Source: Desulfovibrio sp.
Lineage (GTDB): Bacteria; Desulfobacterota; Desulfovibrionia; Desulfovibrionales; Desulfovibrionaceae
Assembly: GCA_031270875.1 (NCBI GenBank)
Contig: JAISXC010000133.1
Location: 1-36,986, forward strand
Length of the DNA: 36,986 bases
Direction of reading: 5' to 3'
In this document: piece after piece, positions 1,061 through 35,361 of the stretch
How the letters are laid out: each line of letters starts with the position of its first letter
Numbering within the stretch: the first letter of the stretch is position 1
Notes under the pieces: generated by a model
Told to the model about the DNA's origin: nothing
Seen by the model: the letters and a program-made list of their open reading frames with translations, nothing else
The model's database searches: none
Translations under genes and position numbers: made by a program

Positions 1061-1765
1061 CTATTTTTCAAGCAGGTTCAGGCCTTCTTCCACCTCGCGG
1101 ATGTGGTCGTACATCATCCGCGCGGCGGCTTCAGGGTTCCGGCTTTCAATGGCGTCAAGGATTCGCTGATGGGCTTCAATGACCCTGGCGGAAAAATCCT
1201 TTCCGGGCTTGAGCTTGTGTTTGGCGTCGGCCAGCATGTTGTTGACGAAGTCAAGCATGACCCACAAAAACGGATTGGCCGCGTACTTGCCGAGGAGAAC
1301 ATGAAACCGCACTTCGGTTTCGTTGCGGATCACGTTTCCGTTGGAATGAAAGTCCTTGACGCAGGCCTCGTGCGTGGCGCGCAGCTCTTCAAAGTTATCA
1401 CGGGTAATATGTTCGGCCGCCTTGCGGGCGATATACGGCTCCACCAGCTTGCGAACCTCGGAGATATCCGCGAGCGTAAACTTTTGAAAATACAAAAAGC
1501 TGGAAAAATAATCCCTTGCCGTGGCCCAGTCTATTTCGCTGACCACAGGGCCGCCGCCGGCCCCGCGCCTGATCGTGATGAGACCGAGCGTTTCCAGGGA
1601 ACGCAAGGCCTCCCGCAACGTATGTTTGCTGACGCCGAACTGGGCAACCAGTTCCTTTTCCCGCGGCAGGGCCTGGCCTGGCTTGAGTTTGCCCTGCATG
1701 ACGGCATCCTTGATCTGCCGCATGATTTGTGTTGATATTTTGTCCTTGCTGGCAGGCGCGAACAT
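1061..1765 (-). CDS. GntR-family (FadR/FCD subfamily) transcriptional regulator
   Basis: A 234-residue regulator. The N-terminal winged helix-turn-helix runs over about residues 10-75 (LPREKELVAQFGVSKHTLRE, then a wing with GLITIRRGAGGG). An all-helical C-terminal FCD domain follows, containing the Asp/His-type metal and ligand positions usual in regulators of organic-acid catabolism. ATG at 1765 is chosen because GGAGG lies seven bases upstream and the protein then starts just before the HTH; the longer frame to 1837 adds an unconserved tail. It is divergent from the mmsA-tctCBA-GRE operon, so that operon is its most likely target. The ligand is inferred to be the transported acid or sulfonate, not shown by sequence. 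Confidence 0.88.
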   Translation of the reverse strand: MFAPASKDKISTQIMRQIKDAVMQGKLKPGQALPREKELVAQFGVSKHTLREALRSLETLGLITIRRGAGGGPVVSEIDWATARDYFSSFLYFQKFTLADISEVRKLVEPYIARKAAEHITRDNFEELRATHEACVKDFHSNGNVIRNETEVRFHVLLGKYAANPFLWVMLDFVNNMLADAKHKLKPGKDFSARVIEAHQRILDAIESRNPEAAARMMYDHIREVEEGLNLLEK

Positions 1766-1857
1766 TCTGCCTCCGATCGCCGGTTGATGGGTTGGGCCGC
1801 TTCTCGCAAGAGTGACACAATCATCAGGAATGCGCAATCAACTCCTTACGTTGTCAC

Positions 1858-1878
1858 GGTAATTATGCCGGAATTGCC
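1858..1878. promoter_or_regulatory. Imperfect palindrome, candidate GntR operator
   Basis: The arms GGTAATT (1858-1864) and AATTGCC (1872-1878) are complementary at six of seven positions around a seven-base centre. The site covers the -10 element and spacer of the putative gntR promoter. A second inverted pair, GTGACA (1812-1817) and TGTCAC (1852-1857), lies beside it. Binding by the adjacent regulator is inference. Confidence 0.4.
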
Positions 1879-1890
1879 CATCATACACAA
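1862..1890 (-). promoter_or_regulatory. Putative sigma70 promoter of gntR
   Basis: On the minus strand, TTGTGT (1890-1885) and CATAAT (1867-1862) are separated by 17 bases, a good match to the -35/-10 consensus. Transcription would start near 1855, about 90 bases before the gntR ATG. The element overlaps an imperfect palindrome (1858-1878), consistent with autoregulation. Confidence 0.55.
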
Positions 1891-2114
1891 ATGACGGCTG
1901 AATTGAGCAAGCGGCTCCGCGCGTGCGGCATTGCCCTCACGCGCACAATAAAAATAACCAAATATTAGAAAATTTATCTTGATATTTTTTGGGAAAAGGC
2001 ATAGGGCGGGGACATGAGCTGCGGGCATCCTCCAACAGAACCAGACCGTCAGGACAAATCTCGGCCCCCAAGGGCGGAAAAGATATTTTAACCATAATTC
2101 TGAAGGAGATGAAA

Positions 2115-3635
2115 ATGGCTGTCAAACGATTGCAGTACTGCGTGGATAATGTCTGGAAAGATTCCCGCTCCCAAAAGTACACGGCTGTGATGAACCCCAG
2201 CACGGGGGAGCAGATTGCCGAGGCCCCCGTCTGCTCCAGCGAAGAGGTGGAGGCGGCCGTCGCCTCCTGCCTGGCCGCTTTCCCCGGATGGTCTTCAAAA
2301 CCTGTGGCCGTGCGCACCCAGGTCATTTTCAGGTTTCGGGAGCTTGTGAATTCCCATTTCGAGGAACTGTCCGTGTTGCTCGCCACGGAGATGGGCAAGA
2401 ATCTGGAGGAATCACGCGGCGACGTCTTCAAGGTGATCGAAGCCTGCGAGCTTTCCGTGAGCGCCCCTTTGGAATTGCAGGGCTATTCTCTGATGGAGGC
2501 CGCCAGAAGTCACGACATCAGCCTGTACCGGGAACCGGTAGGGGTTTTTCTGGGCATTGCCCCGTATAATTTCCCCGCCATGATTCCCTTCGGCTGGTTT
2601 GTTCCGTCCTGTATCGTGTCCGGAAACTGCATGGTGCTCAAGGCCGCCACCATGGTTCCCCAGACCGGCATGCGACTGCTTGAGCTTCTTGTTGAAGCCG
2701 GTCTGCCCAAGGGAGTGGTCAACCTCGTGACCTGCAGCCGGGAAGAGCTGACAGCCCTGATAGATCACAAGGACATCGACGGCGTCAGCTTTGTAGGGTC
2801 GGAATCCGTCGGCAGGAAAATTTACGCCGCCGCCGCGACTGCCGGAAAACGGGTTCAATGTTTGGTGGAAGCCAAAAATCACGCCCTGATACTGGAGGAC
2901 GCCCCTCTGGAATGGACGGCGCGCCGAGTGGTCAATTCCGCCTTCGGTTGCGCCGGGCAGCGCTGCATGGCCCTTCCGGCGGTGGTTGTTCAGGAGTCGG
3001 TGGCGGACGAATTTGTCCGGATCATGAAAAAACTGGCCCAGGAACTGGTTGTCGGCGCGGCCTACGATCCGGCCACCCAGCTTGGGCCTGTTGTCAGCGC
3101 CGCTCACAAGGCTTTTGTGGAAGAGTGGATAACCAGGGGCGTGGAACAGGGAGCCTCGCTGGTTCTTGACGGACGCGGCTGCCGGCCGGCGGGCTTTGAA
3201 AACGGGTTCTTCGTCGGGGCGACCGTTCTTGACCATGTAAAGCCCGGTATGAGCGTGGGTGATGAGGAGATATTCGGGCCAGTGCTGTGCGTCAAGCGCT
3301 GCAAGGATTTTGAGGAAGGTATTTCCCTGATGAACGCCAACCCCTTCGCCAACGGTTCCTCGGTGTTTACCGCAAGCGGCCATTACGCCCGCGAGTTCGC
3401 CCGCCGGACAGACGGCGGCATGGTGGGCGTCAATGTGGGAATTCCCGTCCCTCTGGGATTCTTCCCTTTTTCCGGGCACAAGCGTTCCTTCTACGGAGAC
3501 CTGCATGTGCTCGGCCGGGACGGAATGCGCTTTTACACCAAGGTCAAGACGGTCACCACAAAGTGGGTTTCGCCCGACGAGTCCGAAAAGGCCAGAGTGG
3601 ATACTTGGGAGGGAACGATCAACCGGCAGTTATAG
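2115..3635 (+). CDS. CoA-acylating aldehyde dehydrogenase, methylmalonate-semialdehyde dehydrogenase (MmsA/IolA) type
   Basis: A 506-residue NAD-dependent aldehyde dehydrogenase of the MMSDH subfamily, which turns (methyl)malonate semialdehyde, and in some members simple aldehydes, into acyl-CoA. Visible features are the substrate/NAD segment IAPYNFPAMIPF (148-159), the catalytic Cys284 in the subfamily motif FGCAGQRCMAL, and the C-terminal block VGVNVGIPVPLGFFPFSGHK. The general-base Glu of hydrolytic ALDHs is replaced (Leu250 in LVEAKNH), as in CoA-acylating members. ATG at 2115 is six bases after AAGGAG; the longer frame to 1989 is unconserved. It is the first gene of the operon with tctCBA and the glycyl radical enzyme. 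Its role may be to convert the aldehyde produced downstream to a CoA thioester; the natural substrate is not fixed by sequence. Confidence 0.88.
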   Translation: MAVKRLQYCVDNVWKDSRSQKYTAVMNPSTGEQIAEAPVCSSEEVEAAVASCLAAFPGWSSKPVAVRTQVIFRFRELVNSHFEELSVLLATEMGKNLEESRGDVFKVIEACELSVSAPLELQGYSLMEAARSHDISLYREPVGVFLGIAPYNFPAMIPFGWFVPSCIVSGNCMVLKAATMVPQTGMRLLELLVEAGLPKGVVNLVTCSREELTALIDHKDIDGVSFVGSESVGRKIYAAAATAGKRVQCLVEAKNHALILEDAPLEWTARRVVNSAFGCAGQRCMALPAVVVQESVADEFVRIMKKLAQELVVGAAYDPATQLGPVVSAAHKAFVEEWITRGVEQGASLVLDGRGCRPAGFENGFFVGATVLDHVKPGMSVGDEEIFGPVLCVKRCKDFEEGISLMNANPFANGSSVFTASGHYAREFARRTDGGMVGVNVGIPVPLGFFPFSGHKRSFYGDLHVLGRDGMRFYTKVKTVTTKWVSPDESEKARVDTWEGTINRQL

Positions 3636-3787
3636 AAAGCGCCAATTGCGGCGCGGGCGGCTTTTCGCAGGCTCCCGGCACCACGGTGCAATAAGCGGGC
3701 TGTAACGGCTAGGCGTTGGGGAAAAACTTCTCTGCCGTGATGCCGCAGAAATTATCGCATGTCCACGACAACAAGGAGAGGATCATC

Positions 3788-4792
3788 ATGAAGACAACAC
3801 CCTTTTTTCAAAAAGTCCCCACACTGGTTCTTGCGGCCTGCATGAGCTTCGTCTTTGCCACGAACGCCGTGGCGGCGGAAAAGCCGGCCAACTATCCGCG
3901 CCGTCCGGTCACGGTGATTGTTCCCTTCGGCGCGGGCGGCGGCGCTGACCAGATGGCCAGGGCATTTCTGCCCAAGGTCAGCGAGTACATCGGTGTGCCC
4001 ATCACCATTGTTAACAAGCCGGGTGGCAACGCCACTGTGGGTTTTGCCCAGTTCTGGAGCGCGCCTGCGGACGGCTACACGCTTCTGCAGTATAACGACG
4101 ACGCCGTGACCCACTACGTCTCCGGCATCCTCAAGCAGGATCCGACAAAGGATTACGTTCCCCTGACGATATCCATGATCGTCTACAGCCAGATTTACAT
4201 CCGGCCCGGAGAAACGCGCTTTACCGACTGGAACAGTTTTGTCAAATACGCCAAGGAGCATCCCGGGGAGGTTACCCTCGGCAACATCGCTCAGCGTGGC
4301 AATCTGGAGGAGATGCAGGCCAGCCAGTTGGAGCAGGCGGCGGGCATCAAACTGCGCCACATCAGCTTTGACCAGCCGGCCGAGCGATACGCCGCTCTTG
4401 TTGGTTCCCATGTGGATGCTCTCCTGGAGCAGCCCGGCGACGTGGCCCCGTACCTTGAGTCAAAAGACATGAAGCCCGTCATCTCCTTTACCGATGTTCG
4501 TCCCGCAGAATTCAAGGATATTCCCTGCATCAAGGAACTTAACCCCAAGATGACCAACCTCTACAAAGTTCGCGGGTTCTACATTCACGGCAACCTGCCG
4601 AAACCCATCGCAGCATACCTGCTTGACGCCTTTGAGGCCGGATTCAAGTCCGAACAGTTTCAGCAATACGTCAAAGTCCGCTATCCCGCCGATACCAAGA
4701 CCCGCAATGCCGAAGAGTGCAAGGAATTCATCAGGGGTATGATGGAAACCTATGCCAGGCTGTATGAAGAAATGGGGTACGCCAAGCGCTGA
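3788..4792 (+). CDS. tctC: Tripartite tricarboxylate transporter, periplasmic binding protein (TctC/Bug family)
   Basis: A 334-residue extracytoplasmic binding receptor. Residues 1 to about 28 form a Sec signal peptide ending at NAVAAE. The mature protein opens with the family hallmark YPRRPVTVIVPFGAGGGADQMAR, followed by NKPGGNATVGF and DGYTLLQYNDD, the loops that hold a carboxylate through two ordered waters in known Bug proteins. ATG at 3788 has AAGGAG nine bases upstream. It lies 152 bases after mmsA and 71 bases before tctB, with a hairpin in the second gap. Known TTT ligands include citrate, other carboxylates and some sulfonates; this ligand is undetermined, but the neighbouring GRE makes a sulfonate a reasonable guess. 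Confidence 0.9.
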   Translation: MKTTPFFQKVPTLVLAACMSFVFATNAVAAEKPANYPRRPVTVIVPFGAGGGADQMARAFLPKVSEYIGVPITIVNKPGGNATVGFAQFWSAPADGYTLLQYNDDAVTHYVSGILKQDPTKDYVPLTISMIVYSQIYIRPGETRFTDWNSFVKYAKEHPGEVTLGNIAQRGNLEEMQASQLEQAAGIKLRHISFDQPAERYAALVGSHVDALLEQPGDVAPYLESKDMKPVISFTDVRPAEFKDIPCIKELNPKMTNLYKVRGFYIHGNLPKPIAAYLLDAFEAGFKSEQFQQYVKVRYPADTKTRNAEECKEFIRGMMETYARLYEEMGYAKR

Positions 4793-4803
4793 CGTTCCCT
4801 TTT

Positions 4804-4838
4804 GCCGGGCCACAGCCTGTCCTGCCGTGTGGTCCGGC
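4804..4838 (+). promoter_or_regulatory. Intercistronic hairpin after tctC
   Basis: GCCGGGCCACA (4804-4814) pairs with TGTGGTCCGGC (4828-4838), an 11-bp stem with one G-U pair and a 13-base loop. There is no following T-run, so it looks like an mRNA-stability or processing element rather than a terminator. It could raise tctC transcript levels relative to tctBA. Confidence 0.55.
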
Positions 4839-4863
4839 GGACTAAACGATGAGGGGTTGCAGC

Positions 4864-5394
4864 ATGTGTGATTGGCGGGTTCAATATTTCATAGAGTTCC
4901 TGGTCGTTGCCGGTTTTTCCCTCTGCGCCTGGCTCGCAGCGGCCGAGTTTTCCGTACCGCTGCCGCTGTACAAGTACGGCGCGGACGGCTGGCCCAAGGC
5001 CGTGGCCCTGTGCATGGCATTTAGCGCGGCCTGTCTCTTCGTCTACAGGCTGGTCCAAGGAGCCCCACCTGATGATCCCGGCATTGAGGCCGAGGTTTCT
5101 AGGCCTCTTTTAGAGGTGAACCTGTTCAGAAATGCGGCCGTCTTTGGCGTTCCGTTGCTGTATGCCCTTCTGCTGCCGCACATTGGCTTTTACATGGCCA
5201 CTATACTATTTTTGCCGCTCTATACTTGGCTGCTGGGAGAAAGAAAATTCCTTAGGCTCGGCGTGGTCACAGGCTGCACGGCGGTGGTCATTATCGTCCT
5301 GTTCAGCAAGTACTTGTACGTCCCGTTTCCGTTGGGAAACTGGGGCGTTTTTTATGACATCAACTCCTTCATCAGCGAGCTGATGTACAGGTAG
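4864..5394 (+). CDS. tctB: Tripartite tricarboxylate transporter small membrane subunit (TctB)
   Basis: A 176-residue membrane protein of the poorly conserved TctB (DUF1468) family, the small integral subunit of a TTT transporter. Four hydrophobic segments are visible at about residues 10-28, 43-62, 89-110 and 124-146, with the typical GADGWPKAV segment after the first. I place the start at ATG 4864 because GAGGGG precedes it by eight bases; ATG 4849 is in frame but has no good ribosome site. It sits between tctC and tctA, the normal gene order. The identification relies on position, size and topology more than on residues. Confidence 0.82.
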   Translation: MCDWRVQYFIEFLVVAGFSLCAWLAAAEFSVPLPLYKYGADGWPKAVALCMAFSAACLFVYRLVQGAPPDDPGIEAEVSRPLLEVNLFRNAAVFGVPLLYALLLPHIGFYMATILFLPLYTWLLGERKFLRLGVVTGCTAVVIIVLFSKYLYVPFPLGNWGVFYDINSFISELMYR

Positions 5395-5456
5395 GAGGTG
5401 TCTCGCGTGGCCTGAACCGGCAAGTCCTCACGATGTTCCCCGCCCCGGTTTGTTTT

Positions 5457-5470
5457 CCCGGGATCCCGGG
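5457..5470 (+). repeat. Perfect 14-bp palindrome before tctA
   Basis: CCCGGGATCCCGGG is self-complementary and can fold into a five-bp stem with a GATC loop, 26 bases before the tctA start codon. With the hairpin after tctC it makes both internal gaps of this transporter operon structured. A regulatory role is only inferred. Confidence 0.35.
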
Positions 5471-5496
5471 TTCGACAGGACGCTTGGAGAAACACC

Positions 5497-6999
5497 ATGA
5501 ATGAAATTCTTATCGGCATACAGTTTCTGTTCTCTGACCCTGTCAACGTGTTCCTGTTTTTTGCCGCGCTGTTTGGTGGCCTGTTCTTTGGTGCGCTGCC
5601 GGGAATAAGCGTGGTGACGCTCGGGGCCATGATCCTGCCCTTCACCATGTATCTCACCGCCACACAGGCCATCATGATTTACGCTGTGATGTATTGTTCA
5701 GGCACATACGGCGGAGCGGTCATGGCTATTCTCTTCAACATACCGGGCGCGGCCGAGAACGCGCCCACGGCCTTTGACGGTTACCCCCTGACAAAACAGG
5801 GCAAGGCCGGCAAGGCCATCGGCGCGGCCGTAGTCTGCTCGGCTCTCGGTGGCATCTTTTCCTGCATTCTCATGATGGCCGGCACCCAGTATATTGCCCG
5901 TTGGGCCATTAGCGCCTTCGGCCCGCCCGAGATGTTCGCGCTCATCTTTTTCGCCGTGGCGGTGTCTTCGACGGTCGGCGCCAAAAGCGCCCTGAAAGGG
6001 TGGATATCGGTCTGCATCGGCCTTGTGTTGGCCACCGTGGGCACCGATCCCGTGGGCGGCACCTACCGTTATACCTTCAACACCATTGAACTTACCGCGG
6101 GTATCCACTATCTGGCACTGATTCTTGGATTTTTTTCCATCTCAGAAGTCTTTGCACAGGCGGGAAAGGCCATTTCCACCAAGCCGGTGCCGCCCAAGAT
6201 CAAGATTGAGTTCCCCGGCATTGAGGAATTCTGGATGCAGCGGGTGAACATTCTGCGTTCATCGCTCATTGGATTTTTCTGCGGCCTTCTGCCCGGCATC
6301 GGTACCACCCTTGCCGCGTTCATGAGCTATAGCGAAGCCAAGCGATGGTCAAAGAACCCGGAGAATTTCGGCAAAGGCGAACTGAGCGGCGTGGTTGCCT
6401 CGGAAACCGGCAACAACGCCGCCACCGGGGGGGCCATGGTGCCCATGCTGGCCTTGGGCCTGCCTGGCGGCGCGGTGACGGCCATGATGATCAGTGTGTT
6501 CATGATCCACGGCTTGGAGCCTGGGCCGCTGATCATGGTGCAGCAGCACGATCTCGTATGGACCGTGTTTATCTGCATGCTGCTCGCGAACCTGTGCATT
6601 CTGTTCCTCGGCTATGTGGAAACAAAAACCATCGTGAATCTGCTCAGGATTCCGACATCCTATCTGACGCCGACCATCTTCATCCTTTCAACCGTTGGGG
6701 CCTATGCCATCCGCAACTCCGTGTTCGACGTGTGGGTGATGTTGATAGCTGGTCTTGTCGGCTTTGTCATGAAGAAGAGGGATTATTCTCCTGCCGGGAT
6801 CATCCTCGGCAGTATTCTCGGCTCTCTCGGCGAGGCGGCTCTGGCCAAGTCCATGCAGATGGGCAACTATAACTGGAACATCTTCTTCACTCGCTCGGCC
6901 AGCTGCGTTTTCATGATACTCGGCATCTGCTCCATCATCTACACGGTCCATCACGCCCGTTGCCGGCTTAAGAGGAACAACGCCAAGGCAGCCCCATAA
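5497..6999 (+). CDS. tctA: Tripartite tricarboxylate transporter large membrane subunit (TctA)
   Basis: A 500-residue, about 12-helix membrane subunit of a TTT secondary transporter, which takes ligand from TctC using an ion gradient. The two duplicated TctA loops are clear: GALPGISVVTLGAMILPFT with YGGAVMAILFNIPGAAENAPTAFDGYPL near the N-terminus, and GLLPGIGTTLAAFMSY with a second glycine- and asparagine-rich block (ETGNNAATGGAMVPMLALGLPGG) in the second half. Length is normal for the family. ATG at 5497 follows GGAGA. The stop is directly followed by an AAGGAG-led stump of a B12-binding gene, showing that the operon once continued into a different gene. Confidence 0.93.
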   Translation: MNEILIGIQFLFSDPVNVFLFFAALFGGLFFGALPGISVVTLGAMILPFTMYLTATQAIMIYAVMYCSGTYGGAVMAILFNIPGAAENAPTAFDGYPLTKQGKAGKAIGAAVVCSALGGIFSCILMMAGTQYIARWAISAFGPPEMFALIFFAVAVSSTVGAKSALKGWISVCIGLVLATVGTDPVGGTYRYTFNTIELTAGIHYLALILGFFSISEVFAQAGKAISTKPVPPKIKIEFPGIEEFWMQRVNILRSSLIGFFCGLLPGIGTTLAAFMSYSEAKRWSKNPENFGKGELSGVVASETGNNAATGGAMVPMLALGLPGGAVTAMMISVFMIHGLEPGPLIMVQQHDLVWTVFICMLLANLCILFLGYVETKTIVNLLRIPTSYLTPTIFILSTVGAYAIRNSVFDVWVMLIAGLVGFVMKKRDYSPAGIILGSILGSLGEAALAKSMQMGNYNWNIFFTRSASCVFMILGICSIIYTVHHARCRLKRNNAKAAP

Positions 7000-7009
7000 G
7001 GAGAAGCTC

Positions 7010-7096
7010 ATGAAAACGGTTGTCACTGGGGTCATCGGTGTAGACGCCCACATCATAAGCAACAGGATCGTGCAAAAGGCGATGGAGGACATATGA
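7010..7096 (+). pseudogene. Truncated N-terminus of a cobalamin-binding mutase small subunit (glutamate/methylaspartate mutase S type)
   Basis: A 28-codon reading frame with its own ribosome site (AAGGAG, eight bases after the tctA stop) begins MKTVVTGVIGVDAHIISNRI. This resembles the first beta-strand and B12-binding loop of the S subunit of methylaspartate mutase, where a DxHxxG motif supplies the histidine that ligates cobalt. Here it reads DAHIIS, with the Gly changed, and a TGA ends the frame after the first helix. The remaining ~100 residues are absent and I find no continuation downstream. I read it as a decayed or truncated gene, displaced when the glycyl radical enzyme gene arrived. 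A leader peptide or chance similarity are the alternatives. Confidence 0.5.
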
Positions 7097-7189
7097 TAGC
7101 TCTGGTCCGAAAAACTACGCACCTTAAGCAATAACTATGCCTGACCTTCTCCAAGCTCGTGCAGAAGGGTGAGCATCAAGGAGACGAAA

Positions 7190-9688
7190 ATGGAAACGAG
7201 TTTTTCTTCGTGTGGGCGAGATATGCTTTCTCCGCATGAATGTGCGGTGCTGGATGCGGAAAACGGAAAAAAATTCGAGCGGAAGCATCCCCGCATTGCG
7301 GCTATCCTGGCGACATTCAGCGATGCCGTTCCCCTGCTGGACAGCCAACGCGCTCTGTATTTTACGCGCTCCATGCAGAGAACCGAAGGACGCCCTCTGG
7401 TATGGCGATGGGCTCAGGCTTTGCTGCACATCGCAGAAAACATCAGCGTACATATTGATCCGCATCAGTTGCTGGCTGGGAGGATAGGCAAGGCCCCGCG
7501 CTACAGCATCATGTACCCTGAGGTGGAGGGAGATTTTTATTCCTCTGTGCTTGTGGAATTGGCAGCGCGCGAAACCTCTCAGGCTGGCATCGGTCTGGAA
7601 GATATTGAGGCGGTGGAGCGAGAAGTGGCCCCTTACTGGACCGGCAGAACCTATCATGAGCAATTCAGCAGGATGCTACCACCAGAAACGAGAAGCATAC
7701 TTTTTGCTGATGCAGAGGCCATTCGACCTCGTTATGTCGTCAATGAATCGTCTTCGTTCCGTTCGTCTCTGCAGTGGGTGCATGATTACGGTCGCGTTAT
7801 CCGACGTGGCTTTATAGATATTCGGGGTGAGGCACTGGAAAAATTGGAAGCTCTGGATCCGGACAATCCACAACAGACCAACGAAGTACGCCCGTTCTAC
7901 GAAGCTATTGTCACTGTCAGCGATGCCATTATGCTTTGGGCGCAACGACATGCCGACTTGGCTGCAAGGATGGAAGAAACGGAAACGGACTCCCAGCGTA
8001 AAGAAGAATTACATGCTCTTGCGGAAATTTGTCGCAGGGTTCCGGCCTACCCCGCGCGTACCCTTCATGAAGCGGTGCAATGCCAGTGGTTCGTGCAACT
8101 CTTTTCGCGTCTGGAGCAGCGCACGGGCACGACTATTTCCAATGGCAGAATGGATCAGTATCTATACCCTCTCTATCTTGAGGATCTGAAGCATGGGCGT
8201 ATTACGCCAGATGGAGCTGAAGAACTGCTGGAGTGCCTTTGGGCCTGCATGGCACAGTTTGTTGAAATGTACATTATGCCACAGGGTAATGCGTTCACAC
8301 AGGGTTACGCACACTGGGAAGCAGTGACAATTGGCGGACAGACGAGCAGCGGCGAAGACGCGACCAACGACCTCAGCCATCTGATTTTAAAATCCAAGAG
8401 GGAATTCCCTCTGCATTATCCAGATTTGGCGGCTCGCCTGCACAGCAGAAGTCCCGAATCATTCTTGTGGGACGTTGCAGAAACGGTAAAATATGGTACG
8501 GGACATCCCAAGCTGCTGAATGATGAGGAAATTGTACCATTATTGGTAGCTAAAGGCGCAAAAATGAGTGAAGCACTGGACTATGCCGCATCAGGCTGCA
8601 CAGAAGTACGCATGCCCAACAGAGACACCCTGACCTCCAGTTGCGCTAGAATCAATCTGCCAGCTGCTCTAGAAATGGTGTTCTACCGTGGGAGGATGCT
8701 CAAATATGAAGATCTGTTGTTGGGCGTCAATACTGGAGATCCGTGCAATATGACTGCGTGGGATGAATTTTTTAAAGCTTTTCTCGTTCAACTGCGGCAC
8801 TGCCTGAGAACGGCCTTTGCTTCCCAGTTTGTCATTAACAAACTGCGTCCACATCATTTTGCTCAACCTATGGGGTCAGCGTTGCATGATCTCTGCATGA
8901 GATACGGCATGGATCTGCATTCAGAACATATTCCGGAAGGACTGGAACTTGGGTTTGTGGATTTTATAGGCTTTGGTACGGTGATTGATGCTCTTTCATC
9001 TGTCAAAAAATTGGTTTATGAGGAAAAAAGCGTGACTATGGAAGAGTTGATGAAAAGCCTCAGAGCCGACTTCAAAGATAACGAACCGTTGCGCGTCATG
9101 CTCCAGAAGGCCCCCCGCTACGGGAATAATGACAGCTATGCTGACTCGTTGGGTAAACGTATAGAACAGGAGATTATAAACTATTGCACACTTCATTCGC
9201 CTAAGCTCGGGATGCCAGTAGATGTTCGATACGTGCCAGTGACAGCCCATGTGCCTTTTGGCCGCGTCGTTTCCGCATCCGCTAATGGTCGCCATGCGTG
9301 GACACCTCTTTCAGATGGAACGTCGCCCTCAGTGGGGGCAGATGTTAACGGCCCGACAAGCGTGCTGTTGTCCAACGCAGCAAGCAAAAATATGGATTGT
9401 ATTCGCCGAGCATCGCGTATGTTGAATCTAAAATTTTCTCCGCAAATTTTAGCTGGCGACGAAGGGACAGAACGTCTGGTGCACCTTTTTCGGTCCTTTG
9501 TCGACCTGAAGTTGTGGCATGTACAATTTAATGTTGTCAACAGAGATACATTGATACAGGCAAAGAAAAATCCAGAGAATTACAAAAATCTTATTGTGCG
9601 TGTTGCCGGATATAGCGCATTTTTTGTCGATCTATCTGGCGATATGCAGGACGATATCATTGCGCGCTCGGAACATGATTCATTCTAA
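7190..9688 (+). CDS. Glycyl radical enzyme, probable organosulfonate C-S lyase (isethionate sulfite-lyase-like)
   Basis: An 832-residue GRE from ATG 7190 (AAGGAG seven bases upstream; a GTG at 7169 is weaker). Catalytic features are Cys470 and Glu472 in SGCTEVRMPN and Gly807 in the C-terminal RVAGYSAFFVDLS loop. From memory, Bilophila isethionate sulfite-lyase IslA uses Cys468, Glu470 and Gly805, with Arg189, Gln193, Trp374 and Arg678 holding the sulfonate. A constant +2 shift puts Arg191, Gln195, Trp376 and Arg680 at the same places here. Such enzymes release sulfite from isethionate (IslA) or DHPS (HpsG) under anoxic conditions. The IslA residue I recall as Phe682 would be Val684, so the substrate may differ. 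No activating radical SAM enzyme is adjacent. GC content (40-50% in hand-counted rows) is well below the neighbours, suggesting horizontal acquisition. Confidence 0.85.
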   Translation: METSFSSCGRDMLSPHECAVLDAENGKKFERKHPRIAAILATFSDAVPLLDSQRALYFTRSMQRTEGRPLVWRWAQALLHIAENISVHIDPHQLLAGRIGKAPRYSIMYPEVEGDFYSSVLVELAARETSQAGIGLEDIEAVEREVAPYWTGRTYHEQFSRMLPPETRSILFADAEAIRPRYVVNESSSFRSSLQWVHDYGRVIRRGFIDIRGEALEKLEALDPDNPQQTNEVRPFYEAIVTVSDAIMLWAQRHADLAARMEETETDSQRKEELHALAEICRRVPAYPARTLHEAVQCQWFVQLFSRLEQRTGTTISNGRMDQYLYPLYLEDLKHGRITPDGAEELLECLWACMAQFVEMYIMPQGNAFTQGYAHWEAVTIGGQTSSGEDATNDLSHLILKSKREFPLHYPDLAARLHSRSPESFLWDVAETVKYGTGHPKLLNDEEIVPLLVAKGAKMSEALDYAASGCTEVRMPNRDTLTSSCARINLPAALEMVFYRGRMLKYEDLLLGVNTGDPCNMTAWDEFFKAFLVQLRHCLRTAFASQFVINKLRPHHFAQPMGSALHDLCMRYGMDLHSEHIPEGLELGFVDFIGFGTVIDALSSVKKLVYEEKSVTMEELMKSLRADFKDNEPLRVMLQKAPRYGNNDSYADSLGKRIEQEIINYCTLHSPKLGMPVDVRYVPVTAHVPFGRVVSASANGRHAWTPLSDGTSPSVGADVNGPTSVLLSNAASKNMDCIRRASRMLNLKFSPQILAGDEGTERLVHLFRSFVDLKLWHVQFNVVNRDTLIQAKKNPENYKNLIVRVAGYSAFFVDLSGDMQDDIIARSEHDSF

Positions 9689-10137
9689 TCTCTTTTTCGA
9701 CCATAATGAGCATTTTGACGAACGCCATTTATTGTTTGAATTTTTTGTCCTCGCATTTTAGCGTTAAATTGAAGACACCTGCTTCAGTAGATAGACAGTA
9801 AGAAACAAGAAGAATTGTCCATGCCGTATACGCAAGCAAGCGGCGTTGTGTTCAATGCGCGTAAACGTTATTGTTTCTTTTCGCTTGACTACGCTTCCCA
9901 CATTACTGCCCGTATATGGCCCTTTCCCGAAAAAGTGCCGGCTATACGACAATGTTTGGAATTCACTCCATAGCGCTTGGAGAGCGGAATCAGGCTTTCT
10001 TGACTATTTTGTGTATCTCTCGACGCACTTCCAGAGTCGTGTGTGCGCGAACGTGAAGTTATGACCAATAATTCCTCCCTCTTGAGTTCGGGATGCCTAC
10101 ACCATTGCTCAGAGGGAAAACAGACTGGAGGGAACCC
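9689..10137. other. Gene-poor, low-GC intergenic region between the GRE and the dehydratase
   Basis: These 449 bases have no convincing intact gene and are AT-richer than the flanks up to about 10050. They include a possible transposase remnant on the minus strand (9892-10030). The only clear signal at the right end is the ribosome site GGAGG at 10127-10131 of the next gene. I see no strong intrinsic terminator after the GRE and no confident promoter. Confidence 0.6.
9892..10030 (-). pseudogene. Possible transposase fragment (IS481/IS3-like helix-turn-helix)
   Basis: One minus-strand frame reads SQESLIPLSKRYGVNSK, which resembles the N-terminal helix-turn-helix of IS481-type transposases (pattern ALAKRYGINPKTV.KW). 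Just upstream, another frame reads VRREI, also typical there, implying a frameshift between them. Similarity fades after YGVNSK. No terminal inverted repeats were found. If real, it is a scar of a mobile element next to the low-GC GRE gene. Chance similarity cannot be excluded. Confidence 0.3.
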
Positions 10138-11841
10138 ATGAGCGAAGGACGTGAATTTTTTCCCGTGTCCAAACCCTGGAGGAGCCGGCATGTTGTTTCC
10201 GGCGTCGGCAAGACGGGCCAGCGGGCCATGTTGCGGGCCATCGGCTTTCTGGACGATGATTTTGCCAAGCCGTTCATCGGCATCGTAAACTCGTTCAACG
10301 AAATGCATCCGGGGCATATGCACCTGCGGGAACTTGCCGTGTTTGTGAAGCAGGGAGTTCACGAGGCGGGAGGATACCCGTTTGAATTCAACACAATTGC
10401 CATTTGCGACTCCATCTGCCAGAACCACGCAGGCATGCACCGCGTCCTGCCCAGCCGTGACTGGATAGCGGATACGATTGAATTGCAGGCCGATGCCCAC
10501 CAGCTTGACGGCCTTGTGTTTATCGGCTCGTGTGACAAGATTGAGCCTGGCATGCTGATGGCTCTCGGCAGAATCAACATTCCTTCGATTTTCCTGTCAG
10601 GGGGGGCCATGCTGCCCGGACGTTTCAGGGGGCAGAGCATTGCCGGGGCTTCCGCCCGCAAGTTTGTCGGGCAATGGCTCAAGGGCGGGTTGACGGATCA
10701 GGAAATGATTGATGTCGAGACATGCGCCTGCCCCGGTCCAGGCTCCTGCGCCATGATGGGTACGGCCAATACCATGGCCTGCGTGGCCGAAGTTCTGGGG
10801 CTTGCCATTCCGGGATGCTCCACCTCTCATGCCGTGGCTTCCAGCAAACGGCGTCTTGCCAGAGCAAGCGGCAGGGAGGTGGTGCGTCTTGTCAGGGAAA
10901 ACGTGACCCCCCGCTCCATAGTGACGATGGAATCCTTTGAAAATGCCCTGCGGGTATGCGCCGCCATTGGAGGTTCCTCCAATATTGCCCTGCACCTGCC
11001 CGCAATCGCATACGAATTCGGACTGAGGCTCACGTTGGCCGACTTTGACAGGTGCAGCAGAACCACTCCCCATCTTGTAAATTTGCTGATGGCCGGAAAA
11101 AGCAGCATGCTGGATTTTGACGAAGCGGGCGGCATTCCGGCTCTCTACGGGGAAATGGGATCGTTGCTTCATCGCGGCGCCGGAACGGTAAGCGGCAAAA
11201 CCATAGGCGAGCTTGCCGACGGCGCTGTCAATCGCGACCGGGAAGTCATCCGTCCTCTTTCAAATCCCCATTCCCGCGAGGGGGCCTATGCGGTGCTCTA
11301 CGGCAGCCTTGCCCCGGATGGCTGCATCATCAAGCAGACCGCCGTGGATGCGGGTATGCGTGTTTTCGAGGGGCCGGCCAGGGTGTACGATGCCGAGGAA
11401 GCGGCCTTGCAGGCTGTATATTCGGGGGAAATCAACGCCGGAGATGTGGTGGTCGTTCGTTACGAAGGGCCCAAGGGCGGCCCCGGCATGAGGGAGATGA
11501 TGTCCACCACCGGGGCGCTGGCGGGCATGGGGCTTGGCTCCTCGGTCGCCATTATTACCGATGGCCGCTATTCAGGCTCCACCACCGGCCTCTCCGTCGG
11601 CCACATCGCGCCCGAGGCCGCGGCGGGAGGCCCTCTTGCCCATGTCGTCAATGGAGACACCGTCCGCATTGATATACCCGAAAGAAGGCTGGACCTGCTG
11701 GTCCTCAGCGATGTCATGGAATTGCGCAGAAAAACGATGCCGGTCCAACGCAAGGAGATTTCCAGCCCCGTTCTGCGCAAGTATGTGCGTCTTGTGGGCA
11801 GCGTTTCCGAAGGAGCAAGAATTGACGATTCGTCGTGTTGA
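10138..11841 (+). CDS. IlvD/Edd-family iron-sulfur dehydratase, substrate unknown
   Basis: A 567-residue member of the dihydroxy-acid / phosphogluconate dehydratase family, which removes water from 2,3-dihydroxy acids or sugar acids. The Fe-S cysteines are in place: [17 protein letters not shown] and [16 protein letters not shown]; so is the C-terminal catalytic serine loop TDGRYSGST followed by [12 protein letters not shown]. The first motif departs from the usual CDGIAMGHEGM: it reads [11 protein letters not shown], changing residues close to the substrate, so branched-chain amino acid synthesis is less likely than another hydroxy acid. ATG 10138 follows GGAGG; the upstream frame to 10093 is unsupported. 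High GC separates it from the GRE. Sulfogluconate dehydratase is in this family, but no sulfo-Entner-Doudoroff partners are present here. Confidence 0.85.
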
Positions 11842-27160: not shown

Positions 27161-28021
27161 ATGCAAATCGGATTTATCGGTGTGGGACTCATGGGGGGGC
27201 CACTGGCGCGGAATCTCATCCGCTCCGGCTATTCCGTCCTGATTTTCGATCTGAGCAAAGAGGCCGTGGACAGGACGCTGGCTGCCGGCAATACAGGCAA
27301 AGCGGCCGACCGGATCGGAGATCTGTCCGTCTGTGATGTTGTTTTCACCAGCCTGCCCCTGCCGCAGCACGTCAGTGCCACCATGAGCGGCGCTTCCGGC
27401 CTGTACGGCTTTATGAAAGAAGGCAGCACCCATGTGGAGCTGTCCACCATCGACCCGCAAACAGCGGAAAAACTGGCCGCAGAAGCGGCGGAGAAAAAAA
27501 TCGGCTACATCCAGTGCACACTGGGCAAAACGCCGGCCCATGCGGAAAAGGCTGAAGAACCCATGTTTGTCGGCGGTGACGAGAAGCTGGCGGACGCCCT
27601 CGCCGATATTTTCAAGGTCATCGGCCAACCCCGCCATGTGGGCACTATTGCCGCGTCATGCGCGGTCAAGCTCATTTCCAACATGGTGGGCATGACCAAC
27701 CTCGCCGTGCTGGCCGAGGGCATACGCGCCGGAGAGAAGGCCGGTCTGGATCGCGGACTGTTGCTGGAGTTGCTGGCGGATACCGGAGCCCGGAGTTTCC
27801 AGATGGATGTGCGCGGCCCCTGGATTGCGGCCGATGATTTTAACGCGCGCTTTGGCCTTGATCTCGCCTTGAAGGATGTGCGCCTCGGCTGTGAAATGGC
27901 GAGAGCCTGGAACCTTGACCTGCGCGCGGCGGAAGCGGCTTTTGCATACTATACCGAGGCATCCGCCGCGGGCCACGGCAGGGAAGACTGTAATGCCGTG
28001 TACAAAGTGATAGGCAAGTAG
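27161..28021 (+). CDS. dhpA: Beta-hydroxyacid dehydrogenase family, probable DHPS dehydrogenase / sulfolactaldehyde reductase
   Basis: A 286-residue NAD(P)-dependent dehydrogenase of the 3-hydroxyisobutyrate dehydrogenase family. The Rossmann motif GFIGVGLMGGPLARNL opens the protein and the catalytic Lys170 is in VKLISN. Where most members have SGG, this one has LGKTPAHA (121-128). From memory, E. coli sulfolactaldehyde reductase YihU has VGRTSANA at the same numbers, its Arg123 helping to bind the sulfonate; here Lys123 takes that place. Position at the head of the slaB-suyAB operon suggests it oxidises DHPS to sulfolactaldehyde, as described for the DhpA step in Desulfovibrio sp. DF1. ATG 27161 follows CTGGAGG. 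The symbol is by role, not by alignment. Confidence 0.8.
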   Translation: MQIGFIGVGLMGGPLARNLIRSGYSVLIFDLSKEAVDRTLAAGNTGKAADRIGDLSVCDVVFTSLPLPQHVSATMSGASGLYGFMKEGSTHVELSTIDPQTAEKLAAEAAEKKIGYIQCTLGKTPAHAEKAEEPMFVGGDEKLADALADIFKVIGQPRHVGTIAASCAVKLISNMVGMTNLAVLAEGIRAGEKAGLDRGLLLELLADTGARSFQMDVRGPWIAADDFNARFGLDLALKDVRLGCEMARAWNLDLRAAEAAFAYYTEASAAGHGREDCNAVYKVIGK

Positions 28022-28097
28022 GCGAGACAACGGAGTGCGCCGTAAACGCAGATAACGGGCATCGTCCTGCCTGCCCGACAAAAAAAGGAGAAAACCC

Positions 28098-29099
28098 ATG
28101 CTGAAACATTTTTTTCTCGCGGCCTTGCTGTTGCCGACGCTTATGTTCGCAGGCGCGATCCAGGCAGCCCAGTATCAGAAAATGACTGTCCGCGCGGCCA
28201 CAGCGAATCCGCAGGGCAGCCTGCACGTCACGGCCATTGAAAAATTCAAGGAAATCGTGGAGAAAGATTCCGGCGGAATGATTACCGTCCAGACTTTTTA
28301 CGGCGGCTCCATGGGAGACGAGCAAGCCAACGTCAAACAACTGCGCACCGAAGAACTGCATCTGACGGTGGTGGCCTGCGGCAATCTGACCCCGTTCTCT
28401 CCCCGCGCTTCTCTGTTTATTCTGCCTTACATCTTTCCGTCTCTTCAAGACGCGTACAAGCTTTTCGGCAATCAGGATTTTATGGCAAAGCAGGCCGGCG
28501 TGATCGCCCAGCAAAGCGGAGGTCGCCCTCTGAGCTGGTTGATAGGCGGCTATCGCGTGTTGACCAATTCCAAAAAGCCCATTGCCGTCCTTGCCGATCT
28601 GCAGGGCTTGAAAATTCGTGTTCCGCCTGTGGAAATACAGCTTGACGCCTTTCGCTCCTGGGGCGTGGAGCCGCACCCCCTTGCCTGGACGGAAACCTTC
28701 AACGGATTGCAACAGGGCGTTGTTGACGGTCAGGAAAACCCCCACGGGGTTAACCGCGACCAAAAATTCTGGGAAGTCCAGAAATATATTACCGATTTGC
28801 ACTATATGCTCTGGGTCGGCCCCATGCTCGTGAGCGAAAAATGGTACCGCAAGCTCTCCGCGGACACCAGGGCGCTTGTTGACAGGGCCGCGAAAGAAGC
28901 GGCTCTCTACGAATGGGAATGGGCCAAAAAGGATGTGGAGAAGGCGAAAGACGATTGTCTCTCCCACGGCATGAAGGAAACCGCCCTGAAGGATGAGGGC
29001 CAGTGGATGACCAAAGCGCGCGGCATCTGGCCGAAATTCACGGACAAGCTCGGCGGCAAGGCGGTTGTGGATGAAGCCCTTGCCATTATGGGCAAATAG
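28098..29099 (+). CDS. dctP: TRAP transporter periplasmic binding protein (DctP family)
   Basis: A 333-residue solute receptor of a TRAP transporter. The signal peptide ends near IQAAQ (about residue 24). Family features are GSLHVTAIEKFKEIVEKDSGG, the FYGGSMGDEQANVKQL segment, and GLKIRVPP, whose Arg normally salt-bridges the ligand acid group; LQQGVVDGQENP follows. ATG 28098 has AAAGGAG upstream. It sits between the probable DHPS dehydrogenase and dctQM, so the ligand is probably DHPS or sulfolactate, the anionic sulfonate meeting the binding Arg. A hairpin follows the stop codon. Confidence 0.9.
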   Translation: MLKHFFLAALLLPTLMFAGAIQAAQYQKMTVRAATANPQGSLHVTAIEKFKEIVEKDSGGMITVQTFYGGSMGDEQANVKQLRTEELHLTVVACGNLTPFSPRASLFILPYIFPSLQDAYKLFGNQDFMAKQAGVIAQQSGGRPLSWLIGGYRVLTNSKKPIAVLADLQGLKIRVPPVEIQLDAFRSWGVEPHPLAWTETFNGLQQGVVDGQENPHGVNRDQKFWEVQKYITDLHYMLWVGPMLVSEKWYRKLSADTRALVDRAAKEAALYEWEWAKKDVEKAKDDCLSHGMKETALKDEGQWMTKARGIWPKFTDKLGGKAVVDEALAIMGK

Positions 29100-29113
29100 C
29101 CGCCTTCCGTATC

Positions 29114-29161
29114 GCGCGGCCTGAAAAGGACTGAAGAACGGCCTCCTTGCCCAGGCCGCGC
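29114..29161 (+). promoter_or_regulatory. Intercistronic hairpin after dctP
   Basis: GCGCGGCCTG (29114-29123) pairs perfectly with CAGGCCGCGC (29152-29161). An inner stem, AAGGA (29126-29130) with TCCTT (29144-29148), extends it. No T-run follows. It probably protects or processes the dctP message and lowers readthrough into dctQM. Confidence 0.6.
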
Positions 29162-29236
29162 CGCGGGCGGGCGCCGTGAAGACGTTTGCCGTTTTCAGCA
29201 GGCCGCAAGGTCTGGCTTGGCGTGGAGGGATGCGCT

Positions 29237-29734
29237 GTGCTGAGAAAACTGTACGACAACTTTGAAGAAGCCTTCTGTGTCTTTACCATGGCCGTCATGG
29301 TGGCGTGTCTCACCGTTCAGGTGCTCATCCGGGCGATTGCGGGATCCTCATTGGCCTGGACGGAGGAACTCAGCCGGTACGGCTTTCTCTGGACGGTGTA
29401 CATCGGGGCCGCTCTTGTGGCCAAGCACAACAGTCATGTGCGCATAACAGCCCAGTTTCTGCCCATGCCGGTCAAGGCCCGCCTGGCTTTCCGCCTGCTG
29501 GCGGACGTTATCTGGACGGCCCTCACTTTGTATATCGCCTGGCAAAGCTGGACGGTGATCCACGAAGGCATGGAATTTCCGGAAATTTCGCCGACGCTGC
29601 ACATCGTGAAATCCTATGTGGAGATGGTCATCCCGGCGGGATTCGCGCTCATGGCCTGGCGCATCCTGGAAAACTGGATGGTGCGCTTCAGAAGGGGAAC
29701 TCTGCTTGAACTGCTGCGGGAAGAGGTGGTATGA
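29237..29734 (+). CDS. dctQ: TRAP transporter small membrane subunit (DctQ family)
   Basis: A 165-residue four-helix membrane subunit. The family core WTEELSRYGFLWTVYIGAALVAKHNSHVRI is well preserved, including the Trp-Thr-Glu-Glu that follows helix one. I start at GTG 29237, which has GGAGG eight bases upstream; an in-frame codon at 29186 lacks support. Its stop overlaps the dctM start (ATGA), so the two membrane subunits are translationally coupled. Confidence 0.9.
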   Translation: MLRKLYDNFEEAFCVFTMAVMVACLTVQVLIRAIAGSSLAWTEELSRYGFLWTVYIGAALVAKHNSHVRITAQFLPMPVKARLAFRLLADVIWTALTLYIAWQSWTVIHEGMEFPEISPTLHIVKSYVEMVIPAGFALMAWRILENWMVRFRRGTLLELLREEVV

Positions 29735-31035
29735 TGGAATTGTCCACCCTCTCCGTCATTGTCATCAGCATGTTCGCGCTGTTTTTGCTTGGCCTGCCGA
29801 TCTTCGCGGCCTTGGCCGGCGCCGCGGTTGCCGGGCTTTTTTATGGCGGCAACCTGCCTCTTTCGGTGATTCATAACTCTTTGTTTGAAGGGTTGAATAT
29901 TTTTCCGCTTCTCGCCATACCCTGTTTTGTCATCGCCGGAACTCTGATGGAGCACGGCAACATAACCCAGCAGATTGTGGACGTGGTCAAGCAGTTGGTC
30001 GGCCACACATACGGCGGCCTCGGCATCACCACCATTCTCGCCTGCACCTTTTTCGCCGCGATTTCCGGCTCGGGGCCCGGTACGGTGGCCGCCGTCGGCA
30101 CGCTGCTTATCCCTTCCATGGTGCGCAACGGCTACAGCCAGACCTATGCGGCGGCGGCCGCCTCTTCCGGCGGCACCATCGGCATACTGATTCCCCCCAG
30201 CAATCCCATGATCATCTACGCCATCCTGGGCAATCTTTCCGTGACGGCCATGTTCACCGCCGGTTTCGTGCCCGGATTCACCGTTGCGGCGGCCATGTCG
30301 TTTACAGCCTGGCTCATGGCCAGACGCCAGGGATTCAGAGGGGACGCCGCCGCAACGTTCAACCTGAAGGTTTTTTGCTTCAGCGTTTTCAGAAGCGCGC
30401 CCGCCCTGGCTACGCCCTTCATCATTCTCGGCTCCATTTATTCCGGGATGGCCACGCCGGTGGAGGCGTCGGTCGTGGCCATTCTCTGGTCGCTGCTGGT
30501 GGGCGGCGTCGTGAACCGCGCCCTGCGCCCGATCCATCTGTACAAGGCCCTTCTGGCCGGGGCGAACGTCTGCGGCGCGGTGCTGCTCATCGTGGGGACA
30601 TCCACCCTGTTCGGCAAGCTCCTGACCTTTGAGGAAGCCCCACAGCGATTGACGGAACTGGTGCTTGCCGTTTCCAGCGACCCTACGGTCGTGCTACTTA
30701 TGATCATAGGGGTGTTGATCGTTCTCGGCATGTTCATGGAAACCCTGTCCACCATCATCATCCTTGTTCCCGTGCTCATGCCGGTGCTGAACCAGTTGGG
30801 CATCAATCCCGTCCATTTCGGCATCATCCTTGTGGTGACCAATGAAATGGCCCTGCTCACGCCGCCGCTCGGAGTCAATCTTTTTGTCGCTTCCAGCATT
30901 GCCAACGTATCCATCGAGCGGGTGGCTCTGGGCGTTCTGCCCTACCTGGTGGCCTTGCTGATCTGTATCCTGCTTTTCACACTTGTGCCCGATTATGTGA
31001 TGTGGCTGCCGAGACTGCTGAACATGGCAGGCTAG
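29731..31035 (+). CDS. dctM: TRAP transporter large membrane subunit (DctM family)
   Basis: A 434-residue membrane subunit with about 12 hydrophobic helices that carries the transport path in a Na+-driven elevator cycle. Recognisable blocks are the N-terminal LGLPIFAALAGAAVAGLF, the conserved AISGSGPGTVAAVGTLLIPSM (first half Na+-site region), GILIPPSNPMIIYA, and TPPLGVNLFVASSIA in the second half. It overlaps dctQ by four bases. The next gene, slaB, follows after 40 bases. Confidence 0.94.
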   Translation: MMELSTLSVIVISMFALFLLGLPIFAALAGAAVAGLFYGGNLPLSVIHNSLFEGLNIFPLLAIPCFVIAGTLMEHGNITQQIVDVVKQLVGHTYGGLGITTILACTFFAAISGSGPGTVAAVGTLLIPSMVRNGYSQTYAAAAASSGGTIGILIPPSNPMIIYAILGNLSVTAMFTAGFVPGFTVAAAMSFTAWLMARRQGFRGDAAATFNLKVFCFSVFRSAPALATPFIILGSIYSGMATPVEASVVAILWSLLVGGVVNRALRPIHLYKALLAGANVCGAVLLIVGTSTLFGKLLTFEEAPQRLTELVLAVSSDPTVVLLMIIGVLIVLGMFMETLSTIIILVPVLMPVLNQLGINPVHFGIILVVTNEMALLTPPLGVNLFVASSIANVSIERVALGVLPYLVALLICILLFTLVPDYVMWLPRLLNMAG

Positions 31036-31075
31036 GGCGGTTTTTCTCTATCCACTCACTTTCAAGGAGTTCTCA

Positions 31076-32533: not shown

Positions 32534-32678
32534 AAGCGGACGCGGCACGGGGCTTTGATTCCCTGCCGCCCGGCATTTTGCATGACGTTTGTTGAACATG
32601 CCCTGCAATCGGTAACGCGGGAAAGGTCCGGCGTGTTGCGGGGCGGGAGTTATACCGGAACCTGACGAAGGAGAGGAC

Positions 32679-32963
32679 ATGTCCATTGATTTCGTGGTGC
32701 ACGAGGAAGCCGACGGCGTCGGCGTCGTGGTGGTGGAAGGCATAAAGGCCGGAACGCAATGTACCGGCTGGATCATGCAGGAAGACAAAACCGTTGCCTT
32801 CACGGTTCTTGACGGCATCCCCATCGGCCACAAGGTGGCCCTGAAGGATTTCGCGGTGGGCGACACCGTGATCAAGTACAACACGGATATCGGCAGGGTG
32901 GTGGCCCCGATCAAAAAAGGCGGGCATCTCCATGTGCACAATGTGAAGACCAAGAGGTGGTGA
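32679..32963 (+). CDS. suyA: (2R)-sulfolactate sulfo-lyase small subunit (SuyA; SAF domain)
   Basis: A 94-residue SAF-domain protein, the small subunit of sulfolactate sulfo-lyase, which splits sulfolactate to pyruvate and sulfite. It corresponds to the N-terminal domain of altronate dehydratase (UxaA): GIPIGHKVALKDFAVGDTVIKYN, then IGRVVAPIKKGGHLHVHN at the C-terminus. In UxaA the two parts are fused; separate small and large genes are typical of SuyAB. ATG 32679 is preceded by AAGGAG. Three bases separate its stop from suyB. The 145-base gap before it holds no gene. Confidence 0.9.
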   Translation: MSIDFVVHEEADGVGVVVVEGIKAGTQCTGWIMQEDKTVAFTVLDGIPIGHKVALKDFAVGDTVIKYNTDIGRVVAPIKKGGHLHVHNVKTKRW

Positions 32964-32966
32964 ATC

Positions 32967-34127: not shown

Positions 34128-34254
34128 GCGACGTCCTCAGATCCTCCACACCGCACTGTGCCGCGTGACCAGCAGGTGGTTGCGCGGTGCGGTGCGGGTT
34201 TGTCGTCTCCAGGCCATCCCCCCGCGCGCTTCACCACAAAGAGCGTTCGCCGCC

Positions 34255-34277
34255 GATATGCTGAAACAGCGCATATC
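34255..34277. promoter_or_regulatory. Perfect palindrome upstream of the second tctC
   Basis: GATATGC (34255-34261) and GCATATC (34271-34277) are exact inverted repeats with a nine-base centre, 34 bases before the tctC start. It may be an operator or an RNA hairpin in the leader. The 184-base gap also contains a weaker GC-rich pair, 34150-34156 with 34187-34193. Confidence 0.4.
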
Positions 34278-34311
34278 CGTCTGCCATTTCAAGTCATGTA
34301 AAGGAGGCTTT

Positions 34312-35259: not shown

Positions 35260-35282
35260 ACATCGGCCGGCAGCCCCACGAT

Positions 35283-35325: not shown

Positions 35326-35361
35326 CGCATTGCAATCATCATACGCCTGACGGAAACCGCC

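Follow-up and report, generated by a model that had tools for sequence, protein, structure and literature searches.

The stretch of Desulfovibrio sp. DNA analysed here (36,986 bases, hereafter the window) carries on its forward strand a gene for a sulfonate-lyase-type glycyl radical enzyme (GRE) of 832 aa at 7190..9688. Its reading frame is intact, with no internal stops. Upstream on the same strand are an aldehyde dehydrogenase gene and three genes of a TTT transporter, in the order aldehyde dehydrogenase, tctC, tctB, tctA, GRE. The aldehyde dehydrogenase (2109..3635) was assigned to the CoA-acylating methylmalonate-semialdehyde dehydrogenase (MSDH) family by TIGR01722 (522.7 bits against a cut-off of 448.5) and by an active-site alignment; its open reading frame opens at 1989, and the ATG at 2109 is the likelier start. 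The transporter consists of the periplasmic binding protein TctC (3716..4792; PF03401), the small membrane subunit TctB (4849..5394; PF07331) and the large membrane subunit TctA (5497..6999; PF01970, 449.5 bits). A GntR/FCD-family regulator gene (1061..1837; PF07729, PF00392) lies on the reverse strand, divergent from the aldehyde dehydrogenase gene. Scanning positions 1700-10200 for promoters and terminators returned matches to consensus only. In the gap between tctA and the GRE gene, a 28-codon piece on the forward strand (7010..7096) resembles the N-terminus of the B12-binding methylaspartate mutase S subunit (NF002612, E = 1.7e-6 and 27.6 bits, under the cut-off; PDB 1i9c, E = 0.008). A role for this piece is unlikely; the tctA-GRE spacing in three related loci is too small to hold it.

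These three loci come from D. piger ATCC 29098 (L001), a Desulfovibrionaceae MAG (L002) and a Candidatus Avidesulfovibrio (L003). Before their GRE genes they have matches to TctC (64-67%), TctB (39%) and TctA (66-69%), and the order tctC-tctB-tctA-GRE is thus kept in four of four loci, including the window. Downstream of the GRE they carry a dehydrogenase gene that belongs, like the window copy, to the MSDH family, and then a GntR gene, with an amidohydrolase-family gene directly after the GRE in L002 and L003. TTT transporters named SlcHFG have been linked to sulfolactate uptake in other organisms, according to passages of two papers (PMC5812351, PMC10507020). Amidohydrolase-family genes (PF04909) recur near several types of sulfonate GRE (L090-L097, L103, L105, L106, L002 and L003; the assignment was checked with Pfam in L002, L003 and L096). 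A predicted amidohydrolase function is also mentioned for gene 00649 of the isethionate cluster of B. wadsworthia in a passage of PMC8667426.

The catalytic Cys470, an RVAGY motif containing Gly807, and matches to PF02901 (532 bits) and PF01228 (98.5 bits) place the protein in the GRE superfamily. Its closest solved relatives by sequence were IseG of D. vulgaris (5YMR, 1113 bits), IslA of B. wadsworthia (7KQ3, 1027 bits) and HpsG (6LON, 1001 bits); the next PDB match reached 458 bits. An AlphaFold model had a good overall fold (pTM 0.85), and a Foldseek search with it returned 5YMR, 6LON and 7KQ3 (titled IseG, HPSG and isethionate sulfite-lyase) as the nearest chains. The model had pLDDT values below 50 in the active-site stretches 189-194, 366-375, 471-482 and 683-729. 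The initial annotation named a placement with dehydratase or decarboxylase GREs as an outcome that would speak against a sulfonate lyase. Such a placement was not seen: the protein scored under the curated cut-offs of the models for the DHPS dehydratase HpfG (393 of 1000 bits), CutC (468 of 1050), HypD (485 of 1100), indoleacetate decarboxylase (335 of 1100) and hydroxyphenylacetate decarboxylase (262 of 1150). It did match NCBIfam NF048011, named "(2S)-3-sulfopropanediol dehydratase", with 1280.5 bits against a curated cut-off of 1000. This model accepts IslA-type and HpsG-type GREs as well as those of the clade described below. Because nine of the ten GREs scanned exceeded its cut-off, and D. 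piger's IslA-type GRE with its paired activase reached 1557 bits, the dehydratase name gives no information on the reaction, and annotations derived from it may mislead.

We aligned the protein with 5YMR, 7KQ3, 6LON and 1R8W using MAFFT. The initial annotation had given an offset of exactly two from IslA for seven residues, and the alignment reproduced it exactly: Cys470, Glu472 and Gly807 correspond to C468, E470 and G805, and Arg191, Gln195, Trp376 and Arg680 to R189, Q193, W374 and R678. The sulfonate-binding Arg/Gln/Trp/Arg set therefore coincides with that of IslA, and Val684 aligns on Phe682, as had also been proposed. In IslA, activity was undetectable for R189E, Q193A, R678E, E470Q and C468S, as stated in passages of PMC8473560. 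All these catalytic and sulfonate-binding residues also occur in HpsG, and hence they do not discriminate between IslA and HpsG.

The residues packing against the substrate differ. According to a passage of Xing et al. (PMC6453916), isethionate bound to D. vulgaris IseG makes van der Waals contacts with Phe680, Ile190 and Thr310, and two of these three positions are changed in the window GRE. Besides Val684, they are Leu194 (Ile192 in IslA) and Thr314 (Thr312 in IslA). The triplet Leu/Thr/Val is thus neither the Ile192/Thr312/Phe682 of IslA and IseG nor the Leu/Ala/Ile of HpsG in 6LON, which we infer to be the set that defines HpsG. At the third position, the F682A and F682Y variants of IslA had catalytic efficiencies of 23 and 2.9 per s per M, against 1200 for the unmodified enzyme (passages of PMC8473560). 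The proposal of an isethionate-lyase-like pocket therefore held for the sulfonate anchors but was too narrow in its name. Two of the three packing traits (Leu and a small aliphatic residue) are those of HpsG and one (Thr) is that of IslA, and the protein falls outside the IslA group.

The survey was extended to 195 rows, comprising the query, 119 sequences from the best 120 of 2534 hits, 71 GREs from the loci and four PDB chains. This alignment is centred on the query and includes near-copies (e.g. L005 and P0008), so that its counts are not population frequencies. Arg191, Gln195 and Arg680 were kept in 185 of the 195 rows, and Trp376 in 183 of those 185; the ten rows lacking the three anchors were outgroup or divergent GREs. 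Given this retention and the scores against NF048011, 5YMR and 7KQ3, the resemblance of the window GRE to IslA-type enzymes far exceeds chance. Among the 183 rows the packing sets were Ile-Thr-Phe (141), Leu-Thr-Val (31), Leu-Ala-Ile (3), Leu-Thr-Phe (3), Leu-Ser-Phe (2), and Leu-Cys-Val, Leu-Ala-Val and Leu-Ser-Val (one each). Two further residues, Arg487 and His439, occurred together in 18 of the 195 rows and were exclusive to the subclade of the window. These rows are 17 of the 31 with Leu-Thr-Val plus P0022, a long-branch sequence with Leu-Cys-Val; the other 14 Leu-Thr-Val rows have Tyr, Ser or Met at position 487. Cys470, Glu472 and Gly807 were retained in all 18.

Arg487 lies 17 residues past the catalytic Cys and aligns without gaps onto a Tyr of CutC, which we take to be Tyr506, counting from a CutC catalytic Cys at residue 489. 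Tyr506 of CutC is oriented to the substrate, and the corresponding strand of IslA exits the active site more abruptly, in the description given in a passage of Dawson et al. (PMC8473560). As the active-site loops of the model are of low confidence, the role of Arg487 is one we infer: it could bind a second anionic group of the substrate.

A careful tree of 42 rows recovered the sampled Leu/Thr/Val sequences (20 rows) as one group with support of 100/100, and within it the Arg487 subclade (11 rows), also with 100/100. The position of HpsG was less stable. It joined the Leu/Thr/Val clade in the careful tree (89/92) and fell outside in a quick tree (fork support 83), which left the clade nearer to IslA; an AU test did not reject a placement of the clade next to the IslA group (P = 0.308). 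The window GRE is 58.5% identical to 5YMR, 53.7% to 7KQ3 and 52.7-52.9% to HpsG. Published isethionate clusters were defined with identity thresholds of 60-62%, according to passages of PMC6453916 and PMC6386719, and by pairwise identity alone the window GRE lies below them. The family to which D. piger belongs was surveyed in 288 genomes, with up to three candidates scored per genome, and at least eight of them had matches of 60% identity or more among the matches listed. Within these, the Arg487 form was present in the three relatives (G001-G003) and a sister form in G010, G191, G193, G194 and G195. From these sequence comparisons, the subclade of the window is a real, conserved branch of sulfonate-type GREs, distinct from IslA and HpsG. 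We did not find it described in titles, abstract openings or passages of the literature; the supplements of Xing 2019 and Hanson 2021 may include the D. piger protein.

The window GRE shares with IslA and IseG (7KQ3, 5YMR) the fold, the CxE and glycyl motifs, the Arg/Gln/Arg anchors, Trp376 and Thr314, and differs in Leu194 for Ile, Val684 for Phe, Arg487 for Tyr and His439 for Phe. It also lacks an adjacent activase and is accompanied by a TTT transporter, whereas TRAP or MFS transporters are found there. With HpsG it shares the anchors and the Trp, Leu194 and a small aliphatic residue at 684, but it has Thr314 for Ala, Arg487 for Tyr and His439 for Phe, and no HpsH-type activase is adjacent. 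The nearest group is the sister subclade of L090-L094, which has the same Leu/Thr/Val packing and is its sister in the careful tree; one of its rows, P0019, a near-copy of the L090 GRE, is named Mailhella. Unlike the window, all five sister loci contain TRAP genes, the GRE, an adjacent activase and an amidohydrolase-family gene, and Tyr or Met occupies position 487.

GREs with other pocket sets were found in L098 (182-2572), L099 (7119-9581), L100 (7461-9923) and L109 (1771-4200 and 5278-7659), each with an activase nearby. L099 and L100 have Tyr for Trp376, and the second GRE of L109 has Asn for Gln195. These related GREs are candidates for further specificities. In L107 (1162-3531) and L108 (1792-4161) we observed GRE homologues in which the catalytic Cys is replaced by Ser or Tyr and the equivalent of Arg680 by Phe, and in which the glycyl loops are altered. 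They are located beside activase-like genes, and a further sulfonate-type GRE follows 3.6-4.2 kb downstream. They differ from the Gly-lacking enzymes described in a passage of PMC11528403.

The lack of an adjacent activase, noted in the initial annotation, was borne out. With ten activase sequences from the genomes of relatives as queries, none was found in the window (best E = 0.035), and none lies near the GRE in any of the four loci. The window covers flanks of 7.2 and 27.3 kb, L001 and L002 cover 10 kb, and L003 covers 3.3 and 5.0 kb. The accompanying statement that an activase gene adjoins the GRE gene in characterised relatives was true of most loci. Among 92 placements of GREs of any type in the loci examined (overlapping loci being counted twice), 77 had an activase within 1.5 kb. 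The remaining 15 comprised six placements of the three relatives, four belonging to a pair of IslA-type GREs with an activase some 9 kb away, four truncated at contig ends (L020, L068, L076 and L085) and one orphan, L104. Exceptions to the statement are therefore the two genomes with a distant activase and L104, an IslA-type GRE with no activase found in 18 kb. The L104 gene (locus segment 2462-9852) directly follows ABC transporter genes for two permeases, two ATPases and an NMT1-like binding protein.

In the genomes of the three relatives we also counted the activases of one family, TIGR02494, as matches over its cut-off; as a control, 3 of 14 known genomes were over this cut-off. D. piger (G001) and G003 each had four GREs and three activases, and G002 had six GREs (one apparently split between contigs and one at a contig end) and four activases. 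Every activase counted belongs with another GRE and is adjacent to it, except that in G002 and G003 the activase of the IslA-type GRE is about 9 kb away. An IslA-type GRE is present in each of the three genomes. Since the relatives, a small sample of three, also lack a neighbouring activase but possess other activases, and the sister subclade keeps its own in five of five loci, the simplest reading is that the neighbouring activase was lost and that the GRE is activated in trans. Trans-activation and activase loss, which had been offered as alternatives, would thus go together. TdcE, activated by PflA, is a precedent for activation in trans. The arrangement of L109, in which two GREs flank a single activase, suggests that sharing of an activase can occur among relatives. 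The identity of the glycyl-radical domain to IseG (5YMR) was 62-66% for P0001, L006 and L007 and 74% for L005 in the subclade of the window, compared with 72-79% in four of the five sister rows and 64% in L094. The lower values do not favour recognition by IslB.

The aldehyde dehydrogenase was considered as proof of the product of the GRE, and this use of it was weakened. The protein lacks, at the usual position in the alignment, the Glu that has a hydrolytic role in aldehyde dehydrogenases. In all four loci it has Lys where two solved MSDHs have Arg, and keeps the Arg preceding the catalytic Cys; in MSDHs these Args bind the carboxylate. The window copy is 85-89% identical to copies in G054, G055 and G289 (loci L131, L132 and L134), where no GRE of the window subclade was among the matches listed, and in L131 the copy adjoins a GntR gene 83% identical to that of the window. 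The dehydrogenases of L001-L003 belong to a different branch (53-56% identical to that of the window). Because such close relatives occur where the matches listed contain no subclade GRE, the dehydrogenase is weak evidence, and its link to the GRE in the window may be accidental.

A second sulfonate cluster is present on the forward strand at 27161-36645. It contains genes for a DhpA-like dehydrogenase, a TRAP transporter, a SlaB-like dehydrogenase and SuyA- and SuyB-like subunits, followed by TctC and TctA genes. By homology and gene order, the part at 27161-34127 looks like a route from DHPS through sulfolactate to pyruvate and sulfite. Desulfovibrio sp. DF1 has been shown to degrade DHPS by the DhpA-SlaB-SuyAB route (passages of PMC6278857). 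The SuyB of the window shares 75% identity with the product of a gene from an hps cluster of Cupriavidus pinatubonensis.

Taken together, we think that the window GRE is probably a C-S-cleaving lyase acting on a sulfonate other than isethionate, with its radical installed in trans. The TctCBA transporter would import a small sulfonate. An activase encoded elsewhere, most likely the partner of the IslA-type GRE of the genome, would install the glycyl radical on Gly807, and a thiyl radical would form on Cys470. Glu472 would bind the hydroxyl of the substrate, and Arg191, Gln195 and Arg680 its sulfonate. Hydrogen would then be abstracted from the hydroxyl-bearing carbon, after which the adjacent sulfonate would depart as sulfite and feed dissimilatory sulfite reduction. 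The aldehyde dehydrogenase may convert an aldehyde product to an acyl-CoA. The substrate would be larger or more charged than isethionate, the candidates being DHPS and a C3 sulfonate with more negative charge. In a bolder version, the subclade would form a third class of C-S-cleaving GREs by specificity, in which a dianionic sulfonate (e.g. sulfolactate or 3-hydroxy-2-sulfopropanoate) would be imported by the TTT transporter and gripped by Arg487 and His439, the semialdehyde would be converted to an acyl-CoA, and the activase of another GRE would be used permanently; we regard this as speculative and rather unlikely in its entirety.

A different substrate and family assignment would make the enzyme an HpsG-type DHPS sulfite-lyase, releasing hydroxyacetone and sulfite, in which the pocket changes are cosmetic. 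We hold this to be possible but doubtful. Leu194, the small aliphatic residue at 684 and the join with HpsG in the careful tree agree with it, but the placement with the IslA group survives the AU test, Thr314 replaces the Ala of HpsG, and Arg487 and His439 replace its Tyr and Phe. Hydroxyacetone needs no aldehyde dehydrogenase, and the window already encodes a DhpA-SlaB-SuyAB-like route for DHPS. Evidence from D. piger speaks for DHPS. A 2021 figure legend states that it uses DHPS in few individuals (PMC8397734); section 26 of that paper gives no basis for the statement. The best SuyB match in D. piger, at 34%, is not a close one, and none of its four GREs is of the HpsG type, so that the subclade GRE would be a leading candidate if D. 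piger uses DHPS. In addition, hpsG homologues of Mailhella (HpsGH) are named DHPS lyases in a passage of a 2026 paper (PMC13219744).

It is improbable that the gene encodes a second isethionate sulfite-lyase, whose acetaldehyde would be converted to acetyl-CoA by the neighbouring dehydrogenase. The full catalytic and sulfonate-binding set, the IslA-like Thr314 and the CoA-acylating type of the dehydrogenase would suit such an enzyme. However, at the position of Val684, replacement by Ala or Tyr lowered the efficiency of IslA about 50-fold and 400-fold in the mutants reported in PMC8473560, the identity of 53.7-58.5% is under the published cluster thresholds, and the three relatives already possess an IslA-type GRE. 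The explanation with the lowest probability, which we consider very improbable, is a decaying or silent paralogue that lost its activase and is no longer activated. It would account for the missing activase and for a glycyl domain that has diverged beyond most of the sister subclade. Against it, the frame is intact, Cys470, Glu472 and Gly807 persist throughout the subclade, and the transporter-GRE order is kept in every one of the four loci, although none has an activase beside the GRE.

Some anaerobic bacteria, including species of the gut, use radical enzymes of this kind to release sulfite from small sulfonates, and in the gut the C-S-cleaving GREs thereby supply the formation of hydrogen sulfide. 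The IseG route is the sole sulfonate pathway known in D. piger, according to a passage of one paper. We took the IslA-type GRE that is paired with an activase in D. piger as the published IseG, since the search of this genome found no other GRE of that type besides the subclade GRE. A single activase common to GREs of different substrates would couple two pathways, and a second sulfonate GRE in D. piger could mean an unrecognised source of sulfite.
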